Source: Deltaproteobacteria bacterium
GTDB taxonomy: Bacteria; Myxococcota_A; UBA9160; UBA4427
DNA length: 64,000 nt
Reading direction: 5' to 3'
Assembly (NCBI GenBank): GCA_029261855.1
Contig: JAJDAN010000042.1
Coordinates: 62,001 to 126,000 of the forward strand
Shown here: positions 57,743 to 60,255 of the stretch, piece after piece
Numbering within the stretch: position 1 is the first letter of the stretch
How the letters are laid out: each line of letters opens with the position of its first letter
Position numbers and translations under genes: made by a program
Notes under the pieces: generated by a model
The model's input: only the letters and a program-made list of their open reading frames with translations
Told to the model about the DNA's origin: nothing
The model's database searches: none

Positions 57743-58288
57743 TCAGGACCCGGCGAACTCTTCCCGAACCAGGCGTTCGAGGTCGACATCGCTCTGTGCC
57801 GGACCGCGCGCGATGTCCGTCGTGTCGCTGGCGGCTCGGTTCGGTTCGACCTGCGAGGCGGGCGCCGCTTCGCGAACGCGGGCCATCCGGAAGATCACGA
57901 AGGCCACCAGCGGGCCGCCGAGCAGGAAGCCACCGATGGGGATCGCGTAGGCCGAGATCCCCCAGCCCCCTTCGGCTTTGGGCGCCGAGAGCAGCACGTC
58001 TCCGTAGCGCTCGTACAAGGAGGCCTCGAGTTCGGCCTCGGTCTGCCCTGCCGCGGCCTGGAACAGGATCCACTGGCGCAGCTGGTCCGCCTGGGGACTC
58101 GGGCAGGCCGCGAGGGTACGCCCGGGACAGAACGGGCTCATGAGGTCGTGGGCCAGTGCGTACGCCCAGGCGGGCGGACCGCCGGAGCCCGTCCCGCTGG
58201 CGTCATCGGCGAGACCCTGGGCTGCCGACAGCGACGGCGCCGTGAAGAGCAGCAAACAGGCGAGAGCGAGGGCGCGCGCGATTCGCAT
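57743..58288 (-). CDS. CcmH-like cytochrome c biogenesis protein (atypical Cys motif)
   Basis: A 181-residue protein with a signal peptide (ALALACLLLFTAPSLSAAQG), a periplasmic thiol domain, one later membrane segment (AIPIGGFLLGGPLVAFVIF) and a cytoplasmic tail. The redox motif reads MSPFCPGRTLAACPSPQA, so two Cys are eight residues apart instead of the usual LRCxxC. The family reduces apocytochrome c before haem attachment. It may be a divergent CcmH. Confidence 0.72.
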   Translation of the reverse strand: MRIARALALACLLLFTAPSLSAAQGLADDASGTGSGGPPAWAYALAHDLMSPFCPGRTLAACPSPQADQLRQWILFQAAAGQTEAELEASLYERYGDVLLSAPKAEGGWGISAYAIPIGGFLLGGPLVAFVIFRMARVREAAPASQVEPNRAASDTTDIARGPAQSDVDLERLVREEFAGS

Positions 58289-58290
58289 GG

Positions 58291-59202
58291 TCAGATGTCC
58301 CAGCGCAGCTGGACCGCGGATTGCCGGTCCGGACTCTGGGGCCTCACCTCGTGCCGTGCGGGCTCGGCGATCACCTGGGACCCCGGCGGCACCGACTCGG
58401 TCAGCCACACGTTGCCACCGATGACGCTGCCGGTACCGATCACGGTTTCTCCGCCGAGGATCGTCGCGCCGGCGTAGATCGTGACGTCGTTCTCGACAGT
58501 GGGGTGTCGCTTCTGCCCGCGCAAAGTCGACGAATCGCGCAGCGACGCAGCACCCAGGGTGACGCCCTGATAGATGCGCACGCGGTCGCCGACCTCGGCG
58601 GTCTCTCCGATCACGACGCCCGTGCCGTGGTCGATGAAGAAGTGCCGCCCGATGGTCGCCCCCGGATGGATGTCGATGCCGGTGCGGTCGTGGGCGTATT
58701 CGGCCATGATGCGCGGGATCAGCGGAACGCCCAGCAGGTGCAGCTCGTGGGCGATCCGGTGGATCGAGAGCGCGCGCAACGTCGGGTACGCGAGGATGAT
58801 TTCCTGCAGGTTCGTCGCCGCCGGGTCTCCGTCGAAGGACGCCTGCAGGTCGTCTGCAATGAGCGCGCGGATCGCAGGCAGTCGCTCGATGAAGCCGAGG
58901 GCGAGATCTGCCGCCGTCGCGCCGTCTCGCAGGTCCACGCGGCCGAGCAGGTCCTCGAGTCGCTCTGCCAGGGCTGGCACTTCGGACCGCAGGGCCGACC
59001 GATCGCTCTCGAAGCGGATCAGGCGGTCCGCGCGCTCGACCCAGTCCACGGCCAGTTTGGGATCGAGGATGCCCGGGCACACCGCCTGGGAGATGGCGTC
59101 CTGCCCACAGGCCGAGAGCGCCTTGATCGTCTGATCAAAGACCTCCCGCGCGCTCTTGCGGGCCTCGTGCGAAGGCTCTCGCGTGTCTGCTGTTGCGGTC
59201 AT
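58291..59202 (-). CDS. cysE: Serine O-acetyltransferase
   Basis: A 303-residue SAT with a long helical N-terminal domain and hexapeptide repeats: [38 protein letters not shown]. It makes O-acetylserine for cysteine synthesis. The ATG at 59202 is preferred. No O-acetylserine lyase gene is next to it; CcmH follows two bases downstream. Confidence 0.93.
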
Positions 59203-59319: not shown

Positions 59320-60255
59320 TTGGGCGAGCTGTACAGCCATTCGCGCTTGAAGTGCTTCGAGAACTGCGCGAAGCAGTTCCACTTCAAGTACGTGCTGAAG
59401 CTCCCCCAGGAATCCGAAGGCGTCGAGGCCTTCGTGGGCAAGCGCGTCCACGAGGTGCTCGAGCGGCTGTACGTCTTCGTCGGCCAGGACATGCTTCCGT
59501 CCCTGCCCCAGGTCCTCAACCGCTACGAGCAGTCCTTCGACGTCGAGTACGACCCGGACCGCGTGCGGATCGTGAAAGAAGGAACCCCCCTCTCCTTCTA
59601 CCGAGAGCTCGGCGCGCGCTGCATCGAGACGTACTACCGCCGCCACTATCCCTTCGACGGCGAGGAAACCCTCGGGATCGAAGAGCACGTGAAATTCGAC
59701 CTGGCGCCGGATACCGCCCCCGGCGAATACCAGATGCAGGGCATCATCGACCGCATCTCGAAGACGTCCGACGGCACCATCGAGATCATCGACTACAAGA
59801 CCGGCGGCTACGTGCCGAACCAGAAGGCCCTCGACGAAGACCGCCAGCTGGCCCTCTACCAGATCGGGCTGGCGGACCGCTACGGGCCGGACCGTCCCGT
59901 CGAGCTGGTCTGGTACTACCTGGCCAAGGGCGCCGTCCGGCGCTCGCGCCGGACACCCGAGCAGCTGCAGGAGCTTCGCACTGGCACGGTTGCGCTGATC
60001 GATACCGTGCGAGCCGAGGAAGAGTACAAGGCGCGCAAGAACGCACTTTGCAACTGGTGTGAGTTCAAGTCGGTGTGCCCCGCGTGGAACCCGCACGCAC
60101 GCCAGGCGAGCCCGCCCGGCCCTTCACGGCCCGCGGCGTCTCAGGTCGCGCCTTCGCAGCCCGCGCCTTCACAGCCCGCGTCTTCGCAGCCCGCGACGAG
60201 CAGCACGCGCGAGCCAGCGCTGACGGCAGAACCCAAGCAGCTCTCGCTCTTGTAG
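59320..60255 (+). CDS. PD-(D/E)XK exonuclease of RecB/Cas4 type with a clamp-binding-like C terminus
   Basis: A 311-residue protein from TTG 59320: SHSRLKCFENCAKQFHFKYV, GKRVHEVLERLY and the nuclease core IEIIDYKTG (Asp158, Lys160). Three C-terminal Cys (Cys244, Cys247, Cys253; CNWCEFKSVC) plus Cys12 or Cys16 fit the Fe-S cluster of Cas4/AddB nucleases. A Ser/Pro/Gln-rich tail (SQPAPSQPASSQPA) ends with QLSLL, close to the beta-clamp-binding consensus QL(S/D)LF. No CRISPR or RecBCD genes are nearby, so a replication-linked repair role is inferred. Confidence 0.82.
   Translation: MGELYSHSRLKCFENCAKQFHFKYVLKLPQESEGVEAFVGKRVHEVLERLYVFVGQDMLPSLPQVLNRYEQSFDVEYDPDRVRIVKEGTPLSFYRELGARCIETYYRRHYPFDGEETLGIEEHVKFDLAPDTAPGEYQMQGIIDRISKTSDGTIEIIDYKTGGYVPNQKALDEDRQLALYQIGLADRYGPDRPVELVWYYLAKGAVRRSRRTPEQLQELRTGTVALIDTVRAEEEYKARKNALCNWCEFKSVCPAWNPHARQASPPGPSRPAASQVAPSQPAPSQPASSQPATSSTREPALTAEPKQLSLL

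Follow-up and report, generated by a model that had tools for sequence, protein, structure and literature searches.

The locus described here raises the question of whether a bacterial nuclease without a helicase partner on its own chain could be directed to DNA by the sliding clamp, through a short peptide at the very end of the polypeptide. The gene lies in a 64,000-nucleotide stretch of DNA (hereafter the window) from a member of the Myxococcota; its TTG start is supported by the presence of Met at the equivalent position in most orthologues (Table 1). The best explanation, and one that we consider probable, is that the product is a stand-alone PD-(D/E)XK nuclease of the RecB/AdnA type that is held on the sliding clamp by a DnaN-binding tail peptide and acts at or behind replication forks.

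Table 1. Features of the nuclease gene and its product, in window coordinates.
Feature	Position	Strand	Details
Stand-alone PDDEXK_1 (RecB/AdnA-like) Fe-S-type nuclease gene	59320..60255	+	TTG start, 311 aa
Nuclease core, residues 4-256	59329..60087	+	PF12705, 126.6 bits; AlphaFold2 mostly pLDDT >90; AdnA nuclease domain Z 20.9
Cys16, first Fe-S-type cysteine	59365..59367	+	Invariant
His44, RecB-family His (GKRVHEVLE)	59449..59451	+	Invariant
Asp144, PD-(D/E)XK metal ligand (GIIDR)	59749..59751	+	Invariant
Asp158-Tyr-Lys160, (D/E)XK motif	59791..59799	+	Asp and Lys invariant
QLALY (Gln176...Tyr180), RecB-family QxxxY motif	59845..59859	+	Part of the fold; Q and Y invariant
Cys244, Cys247, Cys253: CxxCx5C, C-terminal part of the Fe-S-type cluster site	60049..60078	+	Invariant
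Ser/Pro/Gln/Ala linker, residues 257-306	60088..60237	+	Predicted disordered, low pLDDT
QLSLL, predicted beta-clamp (DnaN) binding motif, last five residues	60238..60252	+	Orthologue conservation; consensus (PMC11139829)

Nuclease core and C-terminal peptide

The core matches the Pfam family PDDEXK_1 (PF12705; residues 6-254, E 2e-36), with a score far above the gathering cut-off of 22 bits. Across 76 homologues, which span several phyla, the full set of RecB-family catalytic residues (H44, D144, D158-x-K160 and Q176/Y180) is present without variation, as are C16, C244, C247 and C253; C12 is not conserved. A single N-terminal Cys combined with CxxCx5C towards the C terminus of the domain constitutes the Fe-S nuclease pattern of the AddB/Cas4 type. 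Given the invariance of the catalytic residues and the four cysteines, activity is very likely, and so is the presence of an Fe-S (4Fe-4S) cluster of the AddB/Cas4 type, both being predictions and the latter drawing on knowledge of the family. The chain consists of the nuclease domain only, with no helicase domain or equivalent of the kind that would mark an AddB, AdnA or RecB subunit. In a confident AlphaFold2 model (mean pLDDT 89.8), the core is ordered and the tail disordered, with pLDDT values of ~46-56 from residue 271 onward. An initial annotation, made from the sequence, had described a four-Cys Fe-S pattern and a PD-(D/E)XK core, which the invariant residues and the PDDEXK_1 score bear out. 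Its label of RecB/Cas4-like stands in its first half, on the basis of the PDDEXK_1 match and the motifs, and falls in its second: membership of CRISPR Cas4 was rejected, with a score of 25.1 bits for TIGR00372 against a curated cut-off of 65.

The same annotation had noted a flexible Ser/Pro/Gln linker ending in QLSLL, close to the clamp-binding consensus, and both parts of this description hold. QLSLL fits the published form Q-aliphatic-x-[L/M]-[F/L], of which a six-residue variant is also known (PMC11139829), and it is placed at the disordered C terminus (pLDDT ~50). Orthologues were gathered from whole genomes, by region and from named contigs, after which their tails were read; removal of identical cores left 81 unique orthologues, all from one Myxococcota lineage. 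A strict motif, defined as Q[LM]x[LF][LFIV] in the tail, is found in 47 of these, lying within the last 16 residues in 46 and exactly at the C terminus in 33, and relaxed forms bring the count to 61. The annotation had held that absence of the motif from close homologues would count against its proposal, and such absence was not seen. Among 44 representatives at 70% core identity, 23 carry the strict motif. Its residue profile across the 47 occurrences is Q (47), L (44) or M (3), a third position that is most commonly S or D, L (46), and L or F (41). The relaxed forms include five six-residue variants (QLALPL, QLTLPL, QMTLPL, QLSFGF and QLAFTF), a length class known among clamp ligands such as Pol IV (PMC11139829). 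Tails of motif-bearing orthologues range from 24 to 85 aa, and the linker within them is not alignable. A second candidate clamp motif, QLALY near residue 176, was rejected, being the RecB-family QxxxY motif that is nearly always present and forms part of the fold.

The host encodes a standard DnaN clamp. Its DinB-type polymerase ends in QLELFS, its ImuB-type polymerase contains QLGLF, and QESLF occurs where a clamp motif is expected in its DnaE; because these polymerases carry the same signature, the nuclease motif looks like the local clamp signature. Taken together, the retention of both the motif and its place at the C terminus, its fit to the consensus, and the host polymerases strongly support, as comparative evidence, the reading of QLSLL as a putative clamp-binding peptide, and the protein is very likely tethered to DnaN. 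It is improbable that the conserved peptide, though real, has some other protein with a hydrophobic cleft as its partner. Such a partner would accommodate the off-consensus forms in some orthologues (e.g. QPKLL, QRSLL, QPTLL), and DnaN binding by the tail is itself predicted from sequence; however, QL[S/D]L[L/F], the profile that dominates, coincides with the clamp consensus in the literature (PMC11139829), and clamp clients encoded in the same genome share the signature, that of the DinB-type polymerase also being C-terminal.

Genomic context and related nucleases

The gene is a stable component of its lineage. An orthologue was found in 60 of 61 genomes searched, comprising the host's own and those of near relatives; the named relatives are Myxococcota/Deltaproteobacteria metagenome assemblies, including the isolate UBA9160 (L090). 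In a broader sample of the phylum, 29 of 30 genomes of the host's class gave a strong nuclease match, and the other 111 genomes gave none above ~70 bits. The gene order shared by the window and most relatives is methylmalonyl-CoA mutase-like, meaB-like (we take the first two to be such from inspection of their sequences by eye), cobalamin adenosyltransferase, ccmH/nrfF-like, cysE (divergent), nuclease and gloB-like. The ccmH/nrfF-like gene, a weak match, occupies window positions 57743-58297 on the reverse strand between cobalamin adenosyltransferase and cysE, and its place in the order is kept across the lineage. Since synteny is conserved with metabolic genes and with none for repair, orthology is firm and the context gives no hint of function. 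At the other end of the window, a GAGGCGGGACAGTCATGAACGAGG-like sequence occurs three times in tandem, at a spacing of 20 bases (positions 2283-2346).

A search of the window for CRISPR-like repeat arrays found none, in line with the initial annotation, which had noted no CRISPR genes nearby. Its companion statement, that AddAB genes are not nearby, is accurate for the window and fails for the contig as a whole, which carries an AddAB-like pair at 35.1-42.1 kb, ~79 kb upstream of the nuclease and outside the window (L172:2120-9111, reverse strand). Its members are an AddA-like helicase (1219 aa) and a partner of 1109 aa that contains a PDDEXK_1 domain, and judged by sequence the pair is a probable AddAB. 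The assignment of the partner as AddB draws on its place and domain, no NCBIfam model having matched at the threshold used.

Among solved structures, the AdnA nuclease domain comes nearest in fold (Z 20.9, 3.3 A over 233 residues), followed by ACE1 (Z 19.5, 2.8 A over 233). The nuclease resembles the former, part of mycobacterial AdnAB (PDB 9np6/6ppr), in its Fe-S-type CxxC...C and RecB-family motifs, at 21% identity over 233 residues; AdnA, however, shares its chain with an SF1 helicase and acts as part of a heterodimer, whereas the window nuclease stands alone and bears a clamp motif. ACE1, of the Argonaute-associated Cas4 family (PDB 9iac/9iab), is likewise a stand-alone Cas4-like PD-(D/E)XK protein of similar size, but shares only 15-16% identity and is described as Argonaute-associated, while the window nuclease lies beside metabolic genes. 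Searches of plasmids and phages returned distant homologues only. Among RecB-family proteins, the Cas4-like PDDEXK_1 exonucleases of Campylobacter phages share ~27% identity, though they are phage-borne and the match stops at residue 253-255 and does not reach the linker or the clamp tail.

These likenesses bear on a further possibility, namely that the protein is a helper of the AddAB-like helicase-nuclease, or a Cas4-like or defence nuclease, its clamp motif being incidental to its main work. The AddAB-like pair on the same contig, the fold similarity to AdnA and ACE1, and weak profile matches to Cas4, DruK and Argonaute-associated Cas4-like nucleases point in this direction. We nevertheless regard it as decidedly improbable, as the score is under the Cas4 cut-off, the window is without a CRISPR array, and conserved housekeeping synteny with near-universal presence is unlike a defence gene. 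Assignment to Cas4 by location was also rejected: the window has no array-like repeat, and the gene is surrounded by cysE, gloB and cobalamin genes, an arrangement that relatives retain.

The probable clamp-held nuclease has partial precedents. The nuclease domain of Escherichia coli RecB binds the clamp via QVEMEF with a KD of ~2 uM, as reported in 2026 (PMC13254535), and so the principle of clamp contact is not wholly new. The two proteins share the RecB family and, for RecB, a clamp contact of micromolar affinity; in RecB, however, the peptide is internal and buried within the fold of a nuclease domain that belongs to a three-subunit machine, whereas the window motif lies on the free C-terminal tail of a single-domain enzyme. 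A clamp contact has also been proposed for RecF (PMC10287930), and the nuclease activity of actinobacterial and archaeal NucS (EndoMS) is enhanced by the sliding clamp (PMC8228993). Unlike the window protein, NucS is a mismatch endonuclease from another PD-(D/E)XK branch, and the fold match to it is weak (5gke, E 4.5e-3). No report of a stand-alone PDDEXK_1 nuclease with a C-terminal clamp motif was found in the open-access literature searched.

Conservation and probable loss of the motif

Shuffling the residues of each tail 5000 times yielded expected numbers of strict motifs of 0.16 in the tail, 0.06 in the last 16 residues and 0.006 at the C-terminal end, with maxima of 3 in the tail and 1 at the C-terminal end; none of 499 other ORFs (>=150 aa) from the same loci had the strict motif in its last 16 residues. 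That QLSLL arose by chance, or as an artefact of a Gln/Ser/Pro/Leu-rich linker, is scarcely credible even for a protein whose linker is rich in Gln and Ser, as 47 motifs were observed against the 0.16 expected from these composition-preserving shuffles, and the C-terminal position is kept though the linker cannot be aligned.

In a tree of the cores (87 rows), the basal branch of the lineage carries the strict motif in seven of seven rows. Presence or absence of the relaxed motif changes nine times on this tree, a count that alone cannot separate gain from loss. Because the basal branch has the motif and the absences are scattered, the predicted clamp motif looks ancestral to the lineage and appears to have been lost several times, often along with the linker. 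It is absent from 20 of the 81 orthologues, two of which (L096 and L129) read on into other sequence. The remaining 18, among 79 with complete tails, include nine with practically no tail (<=12 aa), and the tether is thus dispensable in some lineages, with the caveat that most of the genomes were assembled from metagenomes and that errors may account for a few of the truncations.

Frameshift as a cause of the missing motif was rejected after the downstream frames were scanned, only three copies of one gene (L056/L121/L153) yielding a motif, a QLRLL in frame beyond a TAG stop. In L056:455-1219, this TAG stop shortens the tail, and the in-frame QLRLL and a following stop lie ~100 bases downstream, consistent with either a recent truncation or an assembly error. 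A recurrent QLHLP ~80-90 bases downstream in other orthologues is probably an out-of-frame reading of the gloB start. The open frame of one homologue (L129:6001-7248) runs into a cytidine/dCMP deaminase domain (residues 270-376), a possible nuclease-deaminase fusion.

Outside the lineage, the clamp motif was not found in distant relatives from other Myxococcota (23-25% identity), which have short tails or other endings, nor in a Zixibacteria relative, whose tail is short. It was likewise not found in related proteins of Methylomirabilota, Acidobacteriota and Eisenbacteria, which have a different C-terminal extension. This extension (L132-L138) spans ~120-155 residues and has no Pfam match above cut-off.

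Proposed clamp tethering and the absence of detectable RecJ

In the proposed mechanism, DnaN on newly made DNA would recruit the nuclease via its C-terminal peptide, and the flexible linker and tail of ~50 residues would let the core reach nearby single-stranded ends, gaps or flaps. The clamp-held enzyme may then process DNA that is left single-stranded or flapped, at the replication fork or behind it, in gaps and repair tracts. Exonuclease function and coupling to replication, rather than to repair, are plausible. The 4Fe-4S cluster, the binding to DnaN, the activity and polarity of the enzyme as an exonuclease, and its substrate in the cell are inferred.

RecJ is a near-universal repair nuclease. 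The host genome, which is 98.6% complete, encodes MutS, MutL and XseA and gave no match for RecJ. In the phylum sample, RecJ was undetectable in all 30 genomes of this Myxococcota class and present in 99 of 111 other Myxococcota, counts that derive from all 99 matched rows belonging to the same phylum; matches in 13 of 14 control genomes indicate that the sensitivity of the search was good. This distribution suggests that the nuclease compensates for the missing RecJ, though it represents a single phylogenetic event, which cannot show causation. A more specific version, in which the clamp-tethered nuclease took over the work of RecJ in gap widening and mismatch-repair excision and is targeted by DnaN instead of by other partners, is tentative and rather doubtful. 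Lineages whose orthologue is without the motif also have no detectable RecJ (e.g. G005, G011 and G014), and the tether is thus not strictly needed for the enzyme's role.

Sister lineages in which the tail appears to have been lost, more than once, provide natural controls. If the clamp-tethering explanation is true, the bacterial sliding clamp would gain a stand-alone nuclease as a client, in a lineage where RecJ is undetectable, and this would offer a direct means of asking what brings nucleases to replication gaps and repair tracts when the textbook enzyme is missing.
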